From positions 248,001 to 312,000 of the forward strand of contig NZ_SMNA01000003.1 in the NCBI RefSeq assembly GCF_004353825.1: a stretch of 64,000 nucleotides of DNA. The letters are read 5' to 3'. This document shows, in pieces, positions 36,612-47,679 of the stretch (its first letter is position 1; each line of letters opens with the position of its first letter). The notes under the pieces were generated by a model that did not search any database, had not been told where the DNA came from, and worked only from the letters and a program-made list of their open reading frames with translations. Made by a program: the position numbers and the translations under genes. This DNA is from Occultella glacieicola (GTDB lineage Bacteria; Actinomycetota; Actinomycetes; Actinomycetales; Beutenbergiaceae).

Positions 36612-39600
36612 TCACACCCGCGAGCGGCGGTACAGCCCGACCCCGAGGCCGATCGCCAGGAGCGCGGCCAGCCCGAGAGCCGCCGGCGCCGCGCCGGTGT
36701 CCGGGAGACCACTCGAGCCACCGCCACCGGAGCCACCACCGCCACCGGGACCGGGCGGCGTGGCGGCGGCCGGCTCGACGGTCACCTCCTGCGTGACCGT
36801 GGTCGCGGCGCCGTCGGCGTCCACTGCCGTGACGGTCAGCGCGTACGTCCCGGGGCTGGTGTAGATGTGGCTCAGTTCGGTGGTGCCGGCCGCGACCGTG
36901 AGCGTGACCGTCGGCGTCGGAACCAGGGCGCGACTGCCCGGGCCGGTCCCGGAGTCGGGCCTGACGCCGAAGTCGACGGTCAGCTCGAAGCCGGCCGCCC
37001 GATCGGACGGCGAGGCATCGTCGAGCGTCACGCTGACGGTGAGCTCCTCGGCGACCTCGACGGTGCCCGGCGCACTCACCGTGAGCATCGGGCCCTCGCT
37101 GGTCACCTCGACGTCGGTGGTGTGGTCACTCGAGCCGCCGTACTGGTTGGTGATCCGCCCGGCGACGGTCACCGTCGCCGGACCGTCCGCGGTCAGCGCC
37201 GCCGGGACCTCTGCGGTCGGATCGGCGGAGTCGACGACGTCGAACGTCCCGTCACCATCGATGTCGAAGGAGTACGTGAACGTCGCACCCGGCGCCGCGT
37301 CCACCGGATCGGTGAACGTCACCGTGGCGGTGTCCCCCTCGGCCACCGGACCGGAGTTGGTCAGGGTCGCCGTCGGCGTGGACGCCTCGACGACGACGGT
37401 GGTGGACAGGTCCGTGGCACCGCCGTCCTTGTCGCTGAGCGTCACGACGAGCACGTGGTCACCCACCGAGGTCAGTACCGCCGGCGGGACCGAGATCGTC
37501 GGCTCCGGGTCGCCGGTGGTCCAGGAACCGCTCGCGTCCGCGATGTCGTCCCCGTCCCAGTCGAGCACGTAGTCGAGTCCGGCCGCCAGATCGGTCGGTG
37601 AGGCGTCGTCCAGGTCCGTCAGGGTCAGCACCGCCGGCACTCCGATCACCACCGGCCCGTCGTTGGCGAGCATGCCGCTCGGTGCGAGGTTCTCGACGAG
37701 CACGTCGGTGGTGTAGTCGCTGGAGCCGCCGTACTGGTTGGCGATCCGCGCGGACACCATCACGGTCGCCGGACCGTCGGGCGTGCCGACCGGCGCGGTG
37801 GGGTCGGTGGCATCCACGATGTCGAACGTCCCGTCGTTGTCCAGGTCGAAGGAGTACGTGAAGGTCGCACCCGGCGCGGCATCGACCGGGTCGGTGAACG
37901 TCACCGTGGCGGTGTCCCCCTCGGCCACCGGACCGGAGTTGGTCAGCGTCGCCGTCGGCGTCGTCGCCTCGACCACCACGGTCGTGGACAGATCCGCGGC
38001 GCCGCCGTCCTTGTCGCTCAGCGTCACCACCAGCACATGGTCACCCACCGACCCCAGCGCCACCGCCGGCACCGAGATCGTCGGATCCGGATCCCCGGCC
38101 GTCCACGAACCGCTCGCGTCCGCCGTCCCGTCGCCGTCCCAGTCCAGGGCGTACCCGAGCCCCGCCGCCACATCCGCGGCCGAGGGATCGGCCAGGTCGG
38201 AGAGTGCCAGCGTGACCGGTTCGCCGATCAGCACCGGCCCGTCGTTCGTGAGCGTGCCGGACGGCGCCGCGTTCGTCACGAGCACCTCGGTGGTGTGGTC
38301 GCTGGAGCCGCCGTACTGATTCGCGATCCGCCCGGTCACGGTCACCGGCGCCGGCCCGTCCACGGTGAGGGCTCCGGGGACCGCGGCGCTGGGATCGGTC
38401 GCGTCGACGACCTCGAACGTCCCGTCGTCGTCGAAGTCGAAGGAGTACGTGAAGGTCGCACCCGGCGCGGCATCGACCGGGTCGGTGAACGTCACCGTGG
38501 CGGTGCCGCCCTCGGCCACCGGACCGGAGTTGGTCAGCGTCGCCGTCGGCGTCGTCGCCTCGACCACCACGGTCGTGGACAGATCCGCGGCGCCGCCGTC
38601 CTTGTCGCTCAGCGTCACCACCAGCACATGGTCACCCACCGACCCCAGCGCCACCGCCGGCACCGAGATCGTCGGATCCGGATCCCCGGCCGTCCACGAA
38701 CCGCTCGCGTCCGCCGTCCCGTCGCCGTCCCAGTCCAGGGCGTACCCGAGCCCCGCCGCCACATCCGCGGCCGAGGGATCGGCCAGGTCGGAGAGCGTCA
38801 CGGTGACCGAGGACCCGATCGGGATCGGGCCGCTGTTGCCGATCGTTCCCGTCGGCGGCAGGTTCGAGACGGTCAGGGTGGCCGAGTCGGTCAGTGTGAC
38901 CGTTCCGTCCGTGGCCTGCACCGAGACAGTGGCGGTGGTCGGTCCGTCGCCGAGTCCGTAGAGGGCCAGGATCCCGGCGCCGAAGTCCGGGCTGCTCCCG
39001 TTGCCGTCGTCGAACGTGCCGTCGCCGTCCATGTCCCAGGCGTAGGTGGCGCCGGCGAGGTCGGACGTCGCAGCGAGACTGAAGAGCGGGTCGCCCTCGG
39101 CGATCGCGTACGGGCCGCCCGCGTCCACCGTCGCCGTGGTGACCGCCAGCGACCAGCCGTCGATCGAGCCGGCGTCACCGGTGGCGTCGTCGACCACGAA
39201 GAGCCGCCACGTGCCGTTCGGGTCGCTGCCGTTGAACACGGCGAGCGACGTCCCGTACGGGCCCGCGGGCGCCGGGGCGGGCATCGGGGCGTCCGGCAGG
39301 GGGCTGCCGTCCCCGTCGAGGTCGACGTCGGTGGGCCGGAACGTCCCGCTCACCGGCGGTACCGGGACGGTGGTGGCCGCGTCGTCGTCGAACGTGAGCG
39401 TGACGTCGCTGATGGGTTGGATGTTGCCGACGTCCGAGAACAGCACCACGGTCTGCCCGGCCGGCCCGACCAGCACCACGTCGATGTCCGCCGGCGAGGA
39501 GTGCGTGATCCCGGCCAGGGTCACCTCGACGTCGGTGACGTAGGAGCCGAGCCCGCTCAGGCGCACGTTCGACGGATACGGGGCGGCGGCGCCGGATGAG

Positions 39601-40622
39601 GGGATCACGATGCCCGTGGGGTTGGCGGAGCCGTCGTCGTTCTCGATCACCACCCGCGCGGTGGTCCTCCCGCCGAGCGCTGCCCCGCCGGTGGGCAGGT
39701 CCAGGGTGACGGTCAGGTCGACGTCGGCTCCCGGGTCGGGGTCGTCGAGGACGGGGATGCTCACGACGGCGCTCGTCTGCCCGTCCGCGAACGGCACCAC
39801 CTGGGACACGGCGGTGTAGTCGACGCCGTCGACCGCGGTCCCGTTCGCGGTGGTGAACCGGGCCGAGACGGCGCCGTCCGCACCGGCGGTGCGCTGCACG
39901 GTGATGTCGATCGTGCCGTCACCCTCGGTGCCGCGGTACTCGGCGGCCCCGAACGCGAGCAGGCCCGGCTGGGTGGCCTCGGCGGTGGTCAGGGTCAACG
40001 ACCAGCCGCCCGCGATGGTGCCGGTGTCACCGTCGGTGTCGTCGATGACATACAAGGACCAGGTGCCGTTCGGGTCGAGGCCACCGAAGGCGTCCGCGAA
40101 CGTGGCGTTGGTGGACGGGGCCGGCCCGCCGCCCGGAGCGAACGTGTCCGCGACGGTCTCGCCGACGTCGACGTCCGTGGGCGCGTAGGTCCCGGAACCT
40201 ACCTGGCCCGAGGCGGGGAACGGGGCGCCGCCGTCGGAGAGCGTCAGCTCGGCGTTCGAGGCGGAGGCCAGTGCTGCGGAACCCCCGATGTCGGACATGA
40301 TCACCAGGTTGCTCCCGCCCGGCGCGACGAGCAGGACGTCCATGTCGTTCAGAATTCCGTGAGTCACGCCGTGCAGGGTCACGTCGACATCGGTGAGCGT
40401 CCCGGCCATCCCGGCCACGCTGACGTTCGACGGGTAGGGCGAGGCGGGCTGGAGGTCCTCGAGCGGGTTCTGGCCGGGGACGGCGATCGGCGCGGTGGCA
40501 CTGAACGTGGTGGGACCGTCCGCGATGGCGGGTGGCGCGAGGACGGCGACGCCACCGAGCGCGAGCGCGGTCACCGCGAACGCGGCGAACGTGCGGTGGA
40601 TGCGATGAGTGTGCGCCGACAC
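36612..40622 (-). CDS. LPXTG-anchored surface protein with P-like domains, Calx-beta and PKD-type repeats
   Basis: A 1336-aa cell-wall protein. Order: signal peptide (1-34), a proprotein-convertase P-like domain (about 50-200; LYVIDDTDGDTG), Calx-beta (about 205-320; FTTANGTAVDGVDY), a second P-like domain (about 335-485), a PKD-like domain (about 490-590), three repeats of about 197 residues (about 595-1185) built of Ig/PKD-like units with DxDxDG calcium-type loops, a final Ig-like domain, a Gly/Ser linker, and LPDTG (from residue 1306) with membrane helix and basic tail. Sortase would attach it to peptidoglycan; no sortase gene is in the window. GTG 40622 has GGAAGGGG upstream. Adhesion or surface assembly is likely; no enzyme domain is seen. 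Confidence 0.88.
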   Translation of the reverse strand: MSAHTHRIHRTFAAFAVTALALGGVAVLAPPAIADGPTTFSATAPIAVPGQNPLEDLQPASPYPSNVSVAGMAGTLTDVDVTLHGVTHGILNDMDVLLVAPGGSNLVIMSDIGGSAALASASNAELTLSDGGAPFPASGQVGSGTYAPTDVDVGETVADTFAPGGGPAPSTNATFADAFGGLDPNGTWSLYVIDDTDGDTGTIAGGWSLTLTTAEATQPGLLAFGAAEYRGTEGDGTIDITVQRTAGADGAVSARFTTANGTAVDGVDYTAVSQVVPFADGQTSAVVSIPVLDDPDPGADVDLTVTLDLPTGGAALGGRTTARVVIENDDGSANPTGIVIPSSGAAAPYPSNVRLSGLGSYVTDVEVTLAGITHSSPADIDVVLVGPAGQTVVLFSDVGNIQPISDVTLTFDDDAATTVPVPPVSGTFRPTDVDLDGDGSPLPDAPMPAPAPAGPYGTSLAVFNGSDPNGTWRLFVVDDATGDAGSIDGWSLAVTTATVDAGGPYAIAEGDPLFSLAATSDLAGATYAWDMDGDGTFDDGNGSSPDFGAGILALYGLGDGPTTATVSVQATDGTVTLTDSATLTVSNLPPTGTIGNSGPIPIGSSVTVTLSDLADPSAADVAAGLGYALDWDGDGTADASGSWTAGDPDPTISVPAVALGSVGDHVLVVTLSDKDGGAADLSTTVVVEATTPTATLTNSGPVAEGGTATVTFTDPVDAAPGATFTYSFDFDDDGTFEVVDATDPSAAVPGALTVDGPAPVTVTGRIANQYGGSSDHTTEVLVTNAAPSGTLTNDGPVLIGEPVTLALSDLADPSAADVAAGLGYALDWDGDGTADASGSWTAGDPDPTISVPAVALGSVGDHVLVVTLSDKDGGAADLSTTVVVEATTPTATLTNSGPVAEGDTATVTFTDPVDAAPGATFTYSFDLDNDGTFDIVDATDPTAPVGTPDGPATVMVSARIANQYGGSSDYTTDVLVENLAPSGMLANDGPVVIGVPAVLTLTDLDDASPTDLAAGLDYVLDWDGDDIADASGSWTTGDPEPTISVPPAVLTSVGDHVLVVTLSDKDGGATDLSTTVVVEASTPTATLTNSGPVAEGDTATVTFTDPVDAAPGATFTYSFDIDGDGTFDVVDSADPTAEVPAALTADGPATVTVAGRITNQYGGSSDHTTDVEVTSEGPMLTVSAPGTVEVAEELTVSVTLDDASPSDRAAGFELTVDFGVRPDSGTGPGSRALVPTPTVTLTVAAGTTELSHIYTSPGTYALTVTAVDADGAATTVTQEVTVEPAAATPPGPGGGGGSGGGGSSGLPDTGAAPAALGLAALLAIGLGVGLYRRSRV
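37845..38200 (-). repeat. Near-identical internal repeat, copy nearer the gene 3' end
   Basis: About 355 bases here match 38436-38791 almost base for base at a fixed offset of 591 bases (197 codons). One visible change is GTGTCCCCC here against GTGCCGCCC in the other copy, altering Asp to Gly. A third, more diverged copy lies at about 37250-37600. Identity including silent positions points to recent duplication or gene conversion. Confidence 0.85.
38436..38791 (-). repeat. Near-identical internal repeat, copy nearer the gene 5' end
   Basis: Partner of the repeat at 37845-38200, 591 bases away and in frame, encoding the same Ig/PKD-like segment (SDKDGGAADLSTTVVVEATT and following residues). 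It is a probable hot spot for recombination that adds or removes 197-residue units. Confidence 0.85.
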
Positions 40623-40679
40623 CGGCCACCCCTTCCGTCGTGCCGCGGGCAGGCGACGACGAGCACCCCCGGGCGGCAC

Positions 40680-40685
40680 CACGCT
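40680..40685 (-). promoter_or_regulatory. Predicted -10 box of the LPXTG gene
   Basis: TAGCGT on the minus strand, 57 bases before the GTG start. A pair of TCACGAT direct repeats (in 40711-40730) lies just upstream and could bind a regulator. Confidence 0.35.
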
Positions 40686-40768
40686 AGCGGCTCGATCCGG
40701 ATCCCCGAAAGTCACGATCCGGTCACGATCACGAAGCGGCACTCGACGGCGCGGCCGCGCCTCTGCCC

Positions 40769-40774
40769 TACTGT
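40769..40774 (+). promoter_or_regulatory. Predicted -10 box of the tail-collar protein gene
   Basis: TACTGT lies 61 bases before the start codon. It is divergent from the LPXTG gene promoter in the same 213-base gap. Confidence 0.4.
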
Positions 40775-40835
40775 GCTCGCGCCCCACCCCTCGGGCGGGA
40801 CGAGTCCCCATCTGCGACGTCTCGACTGGAGCATC

Positions 40836-43681: not shown

Positions 43682-44644
43682 TCATCGACACACCGGCTCC
43701 GGGGCCGACTCGGCGTGGCCATCGGCCACAGCCTCGGGCCCGACCGTTCCGGCCACAGCCGGGACCGTCTGCGGCCCGGGCTCCGGTGGCGGCGTCGCCG
43801 TGCCGGTCCGCAGTTGGGAGGCCACGATCGCTCCGAGCGCCAGTGCGAACCCGAGAAGCTGCGCGGGTTCGAACCGCTCACCGAGGACGAGCGCACCCAG
43901 CGCCGCGGCCACGACCGGGGAGAGCAGTGCGAGCATCGCGGCCGACGTCACCGGGATCCGTCCGATCCCGGTGAACCACAGCGTGTAGGCGAGCAGGCCG
44001 CCGACCACCCCGAGCCAGGCGTAGCCCGCCACGGCCGGCGCGTCGATGCCCGCCGGCACCCCCTCCACGACCAGCGTCAGCGGGACCAGGACCAGCCCTC
44101 CGGCGGTGAGTTGCCACCCGGCGAACGCGAGCGCCCCGGTCGGCCTGCCCCACCGCTTCGTCAGGGTGACGCCGAGGCCCATCGAAGCGGCTCCGGCGAG
44201 CCCGGCCGCGACTCCGAGCACATCTGGCACGGCGTCGGCGCGGAGCACCACCAGGGCCACTCCGACCACGCCCACGACTCCCCAGCCGAGCCGCCAGGCG
44301 GACCAGGCCTGGCCCAGCAGGACGACCGCGAGCACGGCCACGATCAGGGGCTGACCGGCGCCGAGCGTGGCGGCGAGCCCGCCGGGCAGCCGGTAGGCGG
44401 CCACGAACAGCAGCAGGAAGAACGCCCCGATGTTGAGGACCCCGAGGACCGCCGACCGCCACCACCAGGACCCTCGGGGCAGCGCGCGGGAGAGCGCCAC
44501 CGCGAGCAGGCCCGCGGGCAGGGCGCGCATCAGGGCGGCGAACAGCGGCGCGTCCGGGGGCAGGAACTGGGTCGTCACCAGGTAGGTCGTGCCCCAGACG
44601 AGTGGAGCGAGGGCCGTTGCCAAGGTCACGGACAGGTGTCGCAT
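43682..44644 (-). CDS. EamA/DMT-family exporter under MarR control
   Basis: A 320-aa membrane protein of ten helices starting RHLSVTLATALAPLVWGTTYLVTTQFLPP, the standard EamA opening. The second half ends with PVVAAALGALVLGERFEPAQLLGFALALGAI, and a Pro/Gly-rich cytosolic tail of about 30 residues follows. AAGGAG precedes the ATG. It is divergent from a MarR repressor gene, with operator-like repeats between them, so it is probably an efflux pump induced by a small effector. Confidence 0.9.
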   Translation of the reverse strand: MRHLSVTLATALAPLVWGTTYLVTTQFLPPDAPLFAALMRALPAGLLAVALSRALPRGSWWWRSAVLGVLNIGAFFLLLFVAAYRLPGGLAATLGAGQPLIVAVLAVVLLGQAWSAWRLGWGVVGVVGVALVVLRADAVPDVLGVAAGLAGAASMGLGVTLTKRWGRPTGALAFAGWQLTAGGLVLVPLTLVVEGVPAGIDAPAVAGYAWLGVVGGLLAYTLWFTGIGRIPVTSAAMLALLSPVVAAALGALVLGERFEPAQLLGFALALGAIVASQLRTGTATPPPEPGPQTVPAVAGTVGPEAVADGHAESAPEPVCR

Positions 44645-44659
44645 CGCAAACTCCTTAAC

Positions 44660-44736
44660 GTTGAACTATTCAACATGAAGGACTGTAGGATGACCGGAGT
44701 CGTTCGTCAAACATTTCAACGTCAAACAGTTCAGCG
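44660..44736. promoter_or_regulatory. MarR operator region with overlapping divergent promoters
   Basis: GTTGAACTATTCAAC (44660-44674) is a perfect 6-bp dyad with a CTA centre. Two tandem 15-bp repeats follow at 44707-44721 and 44722-44736 (TCAAACATTTCAACG and TCAAACAGTTCAGCG). Overlapping -10 candidates lie between: TAGGAT (44686-44691, plus strand) and TACAGT (44687-44682, minus strand). All three elements share the TTCAAC or TTCAG core, so one regulator could bind several times. Confidence 0.68.
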
Positions 44737-44749
44737 CCGAGGAGTGGCC

Positions 44750-45247
44750 GTGGAAGACGCCGTCGATGCCCGTCTGCAGCAGTGGAACGTGGTCCGGCCC
44801 GATCTCGACGTCTCCGCCATGGGCGTGATCGGCCGCCTGTCCCGACTGACCCGGCTGCTCGAACATGCCCTACAGGAGGTCTTCGATGCGCACGGTCTCC
44901 AGCCCGGCGAGTTCGACCTGCTCGCCACCCTCCGGCGAGCGGACCCGGAGAGCACCGGCCTGACCGCCGTGGCGTTGGCGCGCGCGGCGATGCGGACCTC
45001 CGGGGCGATCACCAATCGCCTCGACCGCCTGGTCGCGAAGGGGCTCGTGCGTCGCGACGTGGACGAGTCGAACCGACGGGCCATCCTGGTCACGCTCACG
45101 CCGGACGGACGCACCGTGCTGGACGCCGCCCTGGCCGATCACGTCGCGAACGAGGAGCGTTTGCTCGCCGCTCTCGAGGCACCCGAACGCGAACAGTTGG
45201 CGAGCCTGTTGCGCACCCTTCTGCTCGCACACGGCGACCGAGCCTGA
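44750..45247 (+). CDS. MarR-family transcriptional regulator
   Basis: A 165-aa dimeric winged-helix repressor. The HTH region spans about residues 55-115, with LTAVALARAAMRTSGAITNR, LDRLVAKGLVRRDVDESNRR and AILVTLTPDGRTVLDAAL, the MarR wing and beta-hairpin. Start GTG 44750 has GAGGAG 6 bases before it; GTG 44744 is the alternative. It probably represses itself and the divergent EamA exporter. Confidence 0.92.
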   Translation: MEDAVDARLQQWNVVRPDLDVSAMGVIGRLSRLTRLLEHALQEVFDAHGLQPGEFDLLATLRRADPESTGLTAVALARAAMRTSGAITNRLDRLVAKGLVRRDVDESNRRAILVTLTPDGRTVLDAALADHVANEERLLAALEAPEREQLASLLRTLLLAHGDRA

Positions 45248-45292: not shown

Positions 45293-45700
45293 CTACGGCG
45301 TGGCGTGCGGCGCGACCATCGGCGCACCGATCCGCGTGATCCGATCCTGCCCCCACGCACCCAGCGGGGCGAGTGCCGCGTTCAGCGCGACGCCCACCTC
45401 GGTCAGGGAGTACTCCACGCGGGGCGGGACCTCCCGGTACACCTCGCGATGGACGAGCCCATCCGCCTCCATCTCCCGCAGGTGCTGGACGAGCATCTTC
45501 TCGCTCACCCCCGGCAGGCCACGTCTGAGCGCGGAGAATCTCCGCGTGCCGTGATCGAGCTCCCACAGGATGAGCGACTTCCACTTGCCGGTGATCACAT
45601 CCATGGCGGCGTCGATGCCGCAGATGTAGGGGCCCTGCCGAGGGCTCGGCGACACCGCCTCGGCGGAACCCGCTGACGCTGTGACCTCGATACTTACCAT
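45293..45700 (-). CDS. HxlR-family transcriptional regulator
   Basis: A 135-aa winged-helix regulator. The family core CGIDAAMDVITGKWKSLILWEL starts at residue 27, with its Cys at the position often used for redox or electrophile sensing in YodB/HypR relatives. RRFSALRRGLPGVSEKML and LTEVGVALNAALAPLGAWG follow. It is divergent from two imine-reductase-like genes, and its start codon lies inside an inverted repeat, so autoregulation and control of those genes are likely. GATACT is 6 bases upstream of the ATG. Confidence 0.92.
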   Translation of the reverse strand: MVSIEVTASAGSAEAVSPSPRQGPYICGIDAAMDVITGKWKSLILWELDHGTRRFSALRRGLPGVSEKMLVQHLREMEADGLVHREVYREVPPRVEYSLTEVGVALNAALAPLGAWGQDRITRIGAPMVAPHATP

Positions 45701-45712
45701 GCGGTGAGTATC
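45689..45712. promoter_or_regulatory. HxlR operator overlapping divergent -10 boxes
   Basis: GATACTTACC (45689-45698) and GGTGAGTATC (45703-45712) form a 10-bp inverted repeat with one mismatch and a 4-base centre. It recalls the TACT...AGTA operators of HxlR/YodB proteins. Each arm holds GATACT oriented towards one of the two genes, usable as -10 boxes. The dyad covers the HxlR start codon. Confidence 0.72.
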
Positions 45713-45778
45713 GCACTCCGAAGTGGGTACTTGTGGAGCGGTGCGCGGCGACGCAGGCTCGAGGAGATGACTCCCTCA

Positions 45779-46747
45779 ATGAATCCGCCACCGTCCTCCC
45801 CCATCACGACCGCAACGCCGCCGACCTCGGCGGCCAACACCTCGACCACCTCGGACTCCCCGGCGCGGCCGCGGGTGAGCATCCTCGGACTCGGTGTCAT
45901 GGGCGCCGCGCTGGCCGGCGCACTGCTCGCGGCCGGGTACCCCACCACCGTCTGGAACAGGACGCCGGGCAGAGCCGAGCCGCTACGCCGCAGCGGCGCC
46001 GCAGAAGCCGCCTCCCCGACCGAGGCGGTCACCACGGCCGACCTGGTGATCGTCTGCGTGTTCGACCACGCCTCGGTGCACGACGTGCTCGATCCGCTCG
46101 TCGAGCACCTCGACGGCATCGACCTCATCAACCTCACCACCACCACGCCTGAGGAGGCCCGCGAGCTCGCGGCCTGGTCCTCGACCCGGGGCATCAACTA
46201 TCTCGACGGCGGCATCATGGCCGTGCCGGCGATGATCGGGCAGGACGGCTCGTCGATCCTCTACAGCGGCGCAGCCGAGGTGTTCCAGCGACACGAACGA
46301 CTCCTGGGCAGCTGGGGCGAGGCCACCTACTTCGGTGGGGATGCCGGACTGGCCTCGCTTGAGGACCTCGCGCTCCTGTCCGGCATGTACGTCATGTTCG
46401 CCGGACTCCTGCACGGTATGGCGATGGTCGCCTCCGTGGGGGTCAGCGCGAGCACGTTCGTCACGCGGGCCCAGCCCTTCCTGGCCGCCATGACCGAGAC
46501 CTTCCCGGCCTTCGCCGAGACCATCGACAGCCGTCGGTACGACGCGCCCGACCGGCAGAGTCTGGAGTTCTCCGACCTCGGCAACCTCGTCCGGGCCAGC
46601 ACCGAGGCCGGCATCAGCCCGGCCGTGGTGCAGATGGTGCAGGACCTGATCATGCGCCAGCGCGACGCGGGCTTCGGCGACGAGGACTTCTCCCGCATCT
46701 ACGAGAGCATCGCCCACCCAGTCACCACCGAATCGAGTGCCTCATGA
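45779..46747 (+). CDS. Imine-reductase-like NAD(P)-dependent oxidoreductase (Asp type)
   Basis: A 322-aa enzyme of the beta-hydroxyacid-dehydrogenase/imine-reductase group. It has the NADP Rossmann motif SILGLGVMGAALAGALLAAG, with TVWNRTPGRAE binding the 2'-phosphate, then the imine-reductase pattern INLTTTTPEEARELAAW, INYLDGGIMAVPAMIGQDGS and DAGLASLEDLALLSGMYV. Asp196 sits where imine reductases carry their catalytic Asp or Tyr. The helical C-terminal half would form the dimer. Residues 1-30 are a Pro/Thr/Ser-rich extension. ATG 45779 follows GAGGAG by 12 bases; ATG 45767 is the alternative. Natural substrate unknown. Confidence 0.85.
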   Translation: MNPPPSSPITTATPPTSAANTSTTSDSPARPRVSILGLGVMGAALAGALLAAGYPTTVWNRTPGRAEPLRRSGAAEAASPTEAVTTADLVIVCVFDHASVHDVLDPLVEHLDGIDLINLTTTTPEEARELAAWSSTRGINYLDGGIMAVPAMIGQDGSSILYSGAAEVFQRHERLLGSWGEATYFGGDAGLASLEDLALLSGMYVMFAGLLHGMAMVASVGVSASTFVTRAQPFLAAMTETFPAFAETIDSRRYDAPDRQSLEFSDLGNLVRASTEAGISPAVVQMVQDLIMRQRDAGFGDEDFSRIYESIAHPVTTESSAS

Positions 46748-47679
46748 CCACCCGGACCGAGACCGGCGCCCAGCATCAGCCTGCCACCACCGTCCCCGTC
46801 ACCGTGCTCGGCCTCGGCCCGATGGGGCAGGCCATGGGGCACGTCCTGCTCGCGGCCGGCCATCCGGTCACCGTCTGGAACCGGACGTCGGCGCGCGCAG
46901 ACACCCTCGTCTCGGCGGGGGCGACGCCGGCGCCGGACCCGGGCTCCGCCGTCGCGAGCAGTGAGCTGGTGATCCTCAGCCTCACCGACTACCAGGCGAT
47001 GTACGACATCCTCGGCGACCACACCGACGCACTGCGCGGTCGTCTGCTCGTGAACCTCAGCTCGGACACCCCGGAACGCACCCGTGAAGCCGCCGACTGG
47101 GCAGGTCAGCACGGCGCCCGGTTCCTGACCGGCGGTGTGATGACGCCCCCGCCGACCATCGGCACGGAAGGTGCCTACGTCTACTACAGCGGACCACGCC
47201 CCGACTTCGAGGCTCATTCGGCGGCCCTGTCCGTGATCGGCGAACCGCGGTATGTCGGCGAGGACCCGGGGCTCGCCCAACTCCTCTACCAGGCGCAGCT
47301 GGACGTGTTCCTGACGGGGTTGGCCGGCCTCCTGCACGCGACCGCACTCGCCGGTAGCGGCGGCGTCAGCGCCGCCGAGTTCGTGCCGCAGGCGTTGGAG
47401 ACACTCACCGGCATCCCGGCCATGATCGAGGACGGTGACGCGCTCGGGACCGCGTTGGACGCACGCTCCCATCCCGGCGACCTCGGCACGACCACCATGA
47501 TGGGCGCCACGGCCGACCACATCGCGGCCACCTCGGCGGCGGCCGGCCTGGACCTCGTCCTGCCCGACGCCGTGGCCTCGCTCTACCGGCGAGCCATCCG
47601 CGCGGGCCACGGGGCCGACAACTGGACCTCGCTGATCGAGGTGATCCGCGCGGGAGTGCTCACCCCAGCCGCGCCCTGA
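46744..47679 (+). CDS. Imine-reductase-like NAD(P)-dependent oxidoreductase (Tyr type)
   Basis: Paralogue of the preceding enzyme, 311 aa, starting at an ATGA overlap so that the two are translated together. It has VLGLGPMGQAMGHVLLAAGH, TVWNRTSARAD, LLVNLSSDTPERTREAADWA, FLTGGVMTPPPTIGTEGAYV and DPGLAQLLYQAQLDVFLTGL. Tyr182 occupies the position that is Asp196 in the neighbour, so the pair covers both known catalytic types of imine reductase. A heteromer or opposite stereopreference is possible. Its 3' end overlaps the convergent phosphotransferase gene by 20 bases. Confidence 0.85.
   Translation: MTTRTETGAQHQPATTVPVTVLGLGPMGQAMGHVLLAAGHPVTVWNRTSARADTLVSAGATPAPDPGSAVASSELVILSLTDYQAMYDILGDHTDALRGRLLVNLSSDTPERTREAADWAGQHGARFLTGGVMTPPPTIGTEGAYVYYSGPRPDFEAHSAALSVIGEPRYVGEDPGLAQLLYQAQLDVFLTGLAGLLHATALAGSGGVSAAEFVPQALETLTGIPAMIEDGDALGTALDARSHPGDLGTTTMMGATADHIAATSAAAGLDLVLPDAVASLYRRAIRAGHGADNWTSLIEVIRAGVLTPAAP

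Follow-up and report, generated by a model that had tools for sequence, protein, structure and literature searches.

A conserved HxlR-type regulator and DNA site adjoining imine reductase genes, alone or in tandem, in Occultella glacieicola and other Actinomycetes

We analyzed a stretch of 64,000 nucleotides of Occultella glacieicola DNA (hereafter the window), taken from contig C17 of a genome that totals 5.3 Mb in 23 contigs. At positions 45293 to 47679, the window harbors a module comprising hxlR, which encodes an HxlR/DUF24-type regulator designated P0003, and, divergent to it, two imine reductase (IRED) genes, IRED-1 and IRED-2. In agreement with the genus, locus L008 of G001, a genome from the same genus as the window, shows identities to the three module proteins equal to those of the Occultella aeris locus L017. 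Our main observation is a new link between the clade of this regulator and imine reductases. The enzyme and regulator families are already known. As far as the open-access PMC literature goes, neither the conserved module nor its DNA site nor the pairing of R- with S-type enzymes appears to have been described, and no link between 'imine reductase' and 'HxlR' was found in its texts.

Linkage of the HxlR clade and its DNA site to imine reductases

P0003 was compared with 388 genomes of the class, with at most 10 candidates scored per genome, and 97 places were listed. Matches at E 1e-36 were present in 88 of the 388 genomes. A cut-off of E ≤5e-50 was chosen after seeing a gap in the list (3.6e-50, then 1.8e-46). 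All 34 places within this cut-off, the window's own genome included, adjoin an imine reductase gene (tabulated by hand). Modules were coded D or Y for a reductase of the Asp or Tyr type, respectively, and DY or DD if they contained two genes. The 34 places comprised 13 D, nine Y, eight DY, and two DD modules, in addition to two Y modules with a broken or fragmentary D gene. Among the 63 places below the cut-off, 20 were examined. They consisted of the 17 that follow in rank, 14 of which adjoin an imine reductase, and of three places (G270, G211:C1, and G262) that were left out of the latter count as they had been picked for an imine reductase already seen nearby.

The link was also observed from the side of the enzymes. 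Among the best 80 of 91 IRED-1 loci, a divergent and adjacent HxlR gene was present in 68 (67 identified by script and L021 by hand). Ten of these 80 loci contained a second imine reductase gene, in a D+Y combination (L017, L021, L038, L071, and L081) or in a D+D combination (L075, L086, and L090, in addition to the Paenibacillus loci L095 and L096, which are devoid of an HxlR gene of the studied clade). The frequency of D modules rests on the HxlR search, on 29 genomes picked for IRED-2 matches, and on 80 genome-contig loci. IRED-2 had matches at E 1e-65 in 44 of 394 genomes, corresponding to at least 30 loci. Nineteen of the best 20 of 30 IRED-2 loci (own locus included) adjoin an HxlR gene of the studied clade; the remaining one, L114, adjoins another imine reductase gene and a remoter HxlR gene. 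At locus L144 of genome G185, a close relative of IRED-1 (61%) lies in a fetched stretch of 5 kb that gave no HxlR match; the same genome carries an HxlR-Tyr-type module elsewhere.

An earlier reading of this DNA, made from the letters alone (the sequence-only reading), had placed a dyad at the shared promoter. We located it at positions 45688–45713 as a predicted operator-like sequence, CGATACTTACC-ATGC-GGTGAGTATCG, composed of two 11-nucleotide arms that are 91% complementary and 4 nucleotides apart. The dyad overlaps the ATG start codon of hxlR. Its consensus, TACTYACC-N4-GGTRAGTA, has one match in the window, with no mismatch (against 0.08 expected when up to 3 mismatches are allowed), and the module dyad is also the only zero-mismatch match in the whole genome. 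Three more places in the genome matched with two mismatches out of 16; according to a rough listing of open reading frames (ORFs), they are located inside a LacI-like ORF, inside a long ORF, and near an ORF start. A second target of HxlR in this genome is neither claimed nor excluded.

Upstream of hxlR, the dyad was detected with at most three mismatches out of 16 in 95 of 115 intergenic regions, in none of 115 coding controls, and in at most 0.08% of shuffles. For this count, only identical upstream sequences were removed, and the region of L010, which was misplaced, was scored as a miss under Y. The dyad was present in 59 of 66 D, 14 of 15 DY, 8 of 10 Y, and 2 of 2 DD modules, and in 12 of 22 remoter modules. 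Thus, the DNA site is much alike whichever reductase adjoins. The dyad varies little among four aligned Occultella sequences, where it overlaps the ATG common to their hxlR genes; the site of O. gossypii differs from the consensus at one base. A second imperfect dyad (45707–45732), read by eye, shares the middle half-site with the first one and ends in a further half-site, GGGTACTT (45725–45732). The motif GGTACTT/AAGTACC was found in the corresponding regions of 20 of 66 D, 12 of 15 DY, 8 of 10 Y, 2 of 2 DD, and 10 of 22 remoter modules. A simple scan of positions 45600–45900 revealed no sigma-70-like promoter or terminator. Together, the conserved linkage and the conserved DNA site lend support to the predicted control of the reductase genes by HxlR that the sequence-only reading had proposed.

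Enzymes and regulator encoded by the module

IRED-1 (45767–46747, plus strand; 326 residues from the ATG at 45767) and IRED-2 (46744–47679, plus strand; 311 residues) overlap by 4 nucleotides, since the start and stop codons share the sequence ATGA (46744–46747, plus strand). The arrangement described by the sequence-only reading, two adjacent imine-reductase-like paralogues proposed to be translationally coupled, was confirmed. Both proteins scored over the Pfam cut-offs for RedAm-like_C (PF21761; 88.3 bits for IRED-1 and 151.2 bits for IRED-2) and NAD_binding_2 (PF03446; 89.4 and 70.6 bits, respectively). RedAm-like_C had two matches in the genome, both at the module, and no third match at E 0.001. 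Curated NCBIfam cut-offs were reached by none of the three module proteins.

A single alignment placed Asp200 of IRED-1 (codon 46364–46366, plus strand) and Tyr182 of IRED-2 (codon 47287–47289, plus strand) in the same catalytic column. The Asp had been designated Asp196 by the sequence-only reading, which is its number from the ATG at 45779; Tyr182 kept its number, and no other residue was placed at this position in either enzyme. In the predicted models, which had a mean predicted local distance difference test score (pLDDT) of 89.2 and 91.0, the catalytic residue is carried by a long interdomain helix (residues 194–222 in IRED-1 and 175–205 in IRED-2). β-hydroxyacid dehydrogenases are reported to rely on a catalytic Lys (PMC10851217), and a Lys occupies the column in L003 and L004, two β-hydroxyacid-dehydrogenase-like ORFs of the same genome that were included in the alignment. 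Assignment of IRED-1 and IRED-2 to this family was rejected because their catalytic column holds Asp or Tyr instead of the Lys of the family.

Imine reductases headed the lists of structural matches for both enzymes. For IRED-2, the closest structure was that of IR91 from Kribbella flavida (PDB 9r76), known here from the structure entry alone, which has 64% identity with IRED-2 across 287 residues (phmmer score of 381.9 bits) and superimposes on the IRED-2 model with a Z score of 36.2 and a root-mean-square deviation of 1.0 Å. For IRED-1, the list was headed by the imine reductases 7osn and 7wnn (Z 32.6; 40–41% identity), although the leading rows were tied within less than one Z unit and the first four spanned Z scores of 32.5–32.6 and identities of 40–47%. 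The best sequence match of IRED-1 was PDB 9kb0 (245.5 bits; 47% identity in the structural alignment). In this entry and in 9kbb and 9kbc, the molecule is named 3-hydroxyisobutyrate dehydrogenase. Family and fold support the identification of IRED-1 and IRED-2 as imine reductases, and imine reduction is their predicted activity. As a separate observation, three genomes of the same genus (L011, L012, and L013) contain imine-reductase-like genes with Phe at the catalytic column (VEFLAQVAVGYEF); none was listed in the window's own genome by the same search.

The regulator, P0003 (45293–45700, minus strand), comprises 135 residues from the ATG at 45700. It contains an HxlR domain (PF01638; 112 bits for a cut-off of 20.8) and matched the structures of YtcD, HypR (YybR), and HxlR. 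The genome contains five HxlR matches. An alternative start codon, the GTG at 45655, coincides with the usual start of the orthologues, 11 residues before the Cys; the GTG was found in two and the ATG in four of the four Occultella sequences compared. The only Cys of P0003, Cys27 (codon 45620–45622, minus strand), is aligned with Cys14 of HypR (chain 4a5m). The conserved Cys that the sequence-only reading had attributed to the regulator was retrieved in 90 of the 92 closer orthologues, the other two having a Ser and a gap, respectively, and in 24 of 25 remoter orthologues (one gap). The compared stretch contained a single Cys in 65 of the 92 closer orthologues, two in 23, and three in four.

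Cys-based sensors of the HxlR family have been described as responding to reactive electrophiles, diamide, and hypochlorite (PMC10458429). Like P0003, HypR, YodB, and HxlR of Bacillus subtilis contain an HxlR domain. YodB controls detoxifying enzymes. Together with CatR, it represses genes for azoreductase and dioxygenase, and both repressors lose activity upon modification of the Cys by an electrophile (PMC10458429). In HxlR proper, the equivalent Cys11 reacts with formaldehyde jointly with Lys13, and the protein is activated (PMC7835342). P0003 has Ile instead of Lys at position +2 relative to Cys27, as do 81 of the 92 close orthologues, none of which has Lys. Formaldehyde sensing by a Cys-Lys bridge is therefore unsupported and this chemistry is not expected here. 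Since the family includes both activators and repressors, the sequence does not indicate which of the two P0003 is. We take HypR to be a two-Cys switch in which a second Cys is engaged in an intersubunit disulfide; P0003, having one Cys, has no counterpart of that residue.

Active-site residues, tandems, and surroundings of the module

According to the sequence-only reading, enzymes of the Asp and Tyr types tend to differ in stereopreference. One source describes Asp enzymes as R-selective and Tyr enzymes as S-selective on 2-methylpyrroline (PMC9067572). In another, S-IRED-Ms (PDB 6smt) is S-selective although it has Asp at the catalytic column, where IRED-2 has Tyr, and its selectivity is ascribed to neighboring hydrophobic residues rather than to the acid (PMC7465668). 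Among solved structures, S-IRED-Ms is also the one closest to the product of the second gene in a mycobacterial tandem (L075 of Mycobacterium sp. AZCC_0083), with a score of 406.7 bits, the next chain reaching only 246.5 bits. The view that Asp versus Tyr sets the stereopreference is thus oversimplified. The hallmark positions, defined as the equivalents of M121, P123, L174, and F177 of S-IRED-Ms (PMC7465668), do differ between the two enzymes: IRED-2 has the S set (Met, Pro, Leu, and Phe), whereas IRED-1 has Met, Val, Leu, and Met. Because selectivity-linked hydrophobic residues differ in this way (Val and Met versus Pro and Phe), an R/S difference between IRED-1 and IRED-2 stays the likeliest guess. 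On the basis of these residues, we infer that IRED-1 belongs to SFam1 (R-type) and IRED-2 to SFam2 (S-type).

The residues were constant among relatives. All 95 first-position Asp-type genes located beside the closer HxlR group encode Met and Tyr at the equivalents of F177 and W178, respectively, and all 35 HxlR-linked Tyr-type genes encode Pro and Phe at the equivalents of P123 and F177. Duplicate loci are counted in the residue figures of 95, 35, and 6 proteins; the distinct sets number 83, 22, 25, and 6. IRED-1 additionally harbors Asn122, Asp200, and Tyr208, with a spacing similar to that of the residues N98, D175, and Y183 of the reductive aminase AtRedAm (PMC9067572). Among distinct closer orthologues of IRED-1, the Asn was present in 82 of 83 and Tyr at +8 from the catalytic column in 83 of 83; among remoter first-gene orthologues, these numbers were 16 and 11 of 22. 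In IRED-2, the Asn is present (Asn104), whereas Leu is found at +8. Other residues at the Asn, Asp, and Tyr positions are reported for many enzymes that display reductive aminase activity (PMC9067572).

Two sets of loci stand apart. The remoter HxlR group (L150–L169) is mostly divergent to Asp-type imine reductase genes, and 10 of 22 remoter first genes encode Thr, Asn, or Trp instead of Tyr at +8; these loci possibly form a second HxlR-imine reductase module with another chemistry. In L114 (578–2400, G292) and L125 (1453–3318, G060), a Tyr-type imine reductase is paired with a relative that has Glu at the column (ALYEMAV); these pairs fall outside the studied HxlR clade.

Tandems were found in several families. 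Twenty-two distinct HxlR-linked two-gene loci were counted by hand (L001, L008, L009, L021, L038, L071, L081, L097, L098, L101, L104, L107, L108, L110, L115, L112, L075, L086, L090, L137, L138, and L169), including four from Occultella and eight from a single family (f25). The residues were readable in both genes of 21 loci, L112 having no readable D residue. In 20 of these 21, an R-type gene is followed by an S-type gene, the latter encoding an enzyme of the Tyr or Asp type. The exception, L137, has two R-type genes; in L138, only two of the four S-type residues are encoded by the second gene. A start codon overlapping the stop codon by 4 nucleotides was available in 15 of 21 two-gene loci, L021 being absent from this list. 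In a midpoint-rooted tree obtained by a quick method from modules with an HxlR score of at least 165 and six chosen outer loci (mycobacterial tandems left out), one side grouped the Tyr-type enzymes with the second-position Asp-type enzymes of L138, L169, L095, and L096 (98% support in the Shimodaira-Hasegawa-like approximate likelihood ratio test), and the other side contained the first-position Asp-type enzymes and both enzymes of L137. With 67 of its 114 inner branches left open, the tree of HxlR proteins lacked the resolution needed to count tandem gains or to date them.

Several loci are incomplete. Beside an intact HxlR gene and an intact Tyr-type gene, the D gene is frame-broken in G041 (L148), reduced to a fragment in G091 (L147), and not seen in G271 (L146). 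In G184 (L123), it is the Tyr-type gene that is broken, and an HxlR gene of the studied clade was not seen. The broken loci of these four genomes reflect either decay of the module or sequencing errors.

The genes flanking the module in the window look unrelated to it. They encode an EamA-type transporter upstream and, downstream, a phosphotransferase-family protein, two electron-transfer flavoproteins, and an alpha-amylase-family enzyme. The transporter gene (minus strand) is divergent to a gene for a MarR-like regulator, recognized by eye at the end of a long plus-strand ORF stopping at 45247; this second regulator/effector pair (43682–45247) directly adjoins the module. Farther upstream, an ORF of 1399 residues (36612–40811) contains repeats and ends with LPDTG and a hydrophobic tail; we presume from this motif that it resembles a sortase-anchored surface protein.

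Possible role of the module

On balance, we favor the view that the module is a locally acting switch, in which a Cys-based HxlR regulator responsive to electrophiles or imines controls facially complementary imine reductases. The linkage, the conservation of the dyad, the kept Cys, and the R+S pairing all argue for this view, as do the related regulators of B. subtilis, described as sensing electrophiles via the same Cys and controlling detoxifying enzymes (PMC7835342; PMC10458429). HxlR would bind the TACTYACC-N4-GGTRAGTA dyad located between its own gene and the reductase operon, as suggested by its conservation. By analogy with the family, the conserved N-terminal Cys would respond to an electrophile, either a reactive carbonyl or imine/iminium itself or a compound accompanying one. 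This response would raise the synthesis of imine reductases dependent on reduced nicotinamide adenine dinucleotide phosphate, which would convert the C=N compound into a harmless or usable amine. The pair, which combines an enzyme of the R-selective kind (Asp200, along with Asn122 and Tyr208 matching those of reductive aminases) and one of the S-selective kind (Tyr182), may allow imines to be reduced at either face or a broader set of imines to be handled.

Several observations weigh against this interpretation. No imine reductase adjoins three of the 17 HxlR places that come next in rank, and 12 of the 80 IRED-1 loci lack a divergent HxlR gene at that place, although two of them (L029 and L032) are near a contig end and a third (L093) has an HxlR gene at 954 nucleotides. 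Ten remoter or broken relatives of IRED-2 (L116–L125; 48–51% identity, except for the broken gene of L123 at 59%) have no HxlR of the studied clade in the fetched stretch, so that the link holds for close relatives of IRED-2 and not for Tyr-type enzymes at large. No neighboring gene names the chemistry: in the 80 loci, no third family was widely recurrent, ORFs of the very large short-chain-dehydrogenase-like family being present in seven loci from several genera and the other sets originating from related strains. The rows represent related species, not independent events, and the dyad is consistent with both activation and repression.

The module might instead be biosynthetic or catabolic, the reductases making or using a specific amine, for example by reductive amination, and HxlR sensing a pathway intermediate instead of stress. 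Indeed, the literature describes a biosynthetic natural role, that of RedE (PMC10851217), and the reductive-aminase Asn/Asp/Tyr set is nearly invariant among closer orthologues of IRED-1. The lack of a widely recurrent third gene family is at odds with a pathway, and we regard this explanation as rather unlikely. It is improbable that the enzymes form an ordinary pair kept for redundancy under an HxlR responding to general thiol-oxidative stress, imines being irrelevant in vivo. The responses of the family to diamide and hypochlorite are compatible with such a role, as is the replacement of D and Y genes by each other beside the same regulator, whereas the association of the closest regulator clade with imine reductases in 34 of 34 places speaks against it. 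The fixed gene order, the 4-nucleotide overlap, and the presence of one enzyme of each kind in nearly all tandems would be accounted for by a mixed dimer whose two active sites differ, and imine reductases are reported to share domains reciprocally in dimers (PMC7465668). Y-only and D-only modules are nevertheless common, G059 carries HxlR-D and HxlR-Y modules on two contigs, and the Y gene is kept where the D gene is broken or a fragment. These findings suggest that each enzyme is able to act by itself and speak against an obligate mixed dimer, the most doubtful of the explanations considered.

The locally acting switch could also be part of something broader. We tentatively propose a dedicated imine/iminium stress response, in which an HxlR clade of Actinomycetes and remoter kin is devoted to imine reductases, the R- and S-type enzymes being co-translated in some lineages and reducing either face of reactive carbonyl-amine adducts. 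If true, such a response would account for what a sizeable proportion of actinobacterial imine reductases do in nature. An electrophile-responsive regulator associated with a detoxifying reductase is a kind of system already known. Since the regulator clade and its DNA site travel with imine reductases across families, the question of the natural role of these enzymes becomes a screen for inducers, and the compound sensed by HxlR should point to the imine reductase substrate. The natural R/S enzyme pairs are candidate stereocomplementary catalysts. The recurrence of the switch, the DNA site, and the enzymes across many soil bacteria provides a testable lead on the natural role of imine reductases.

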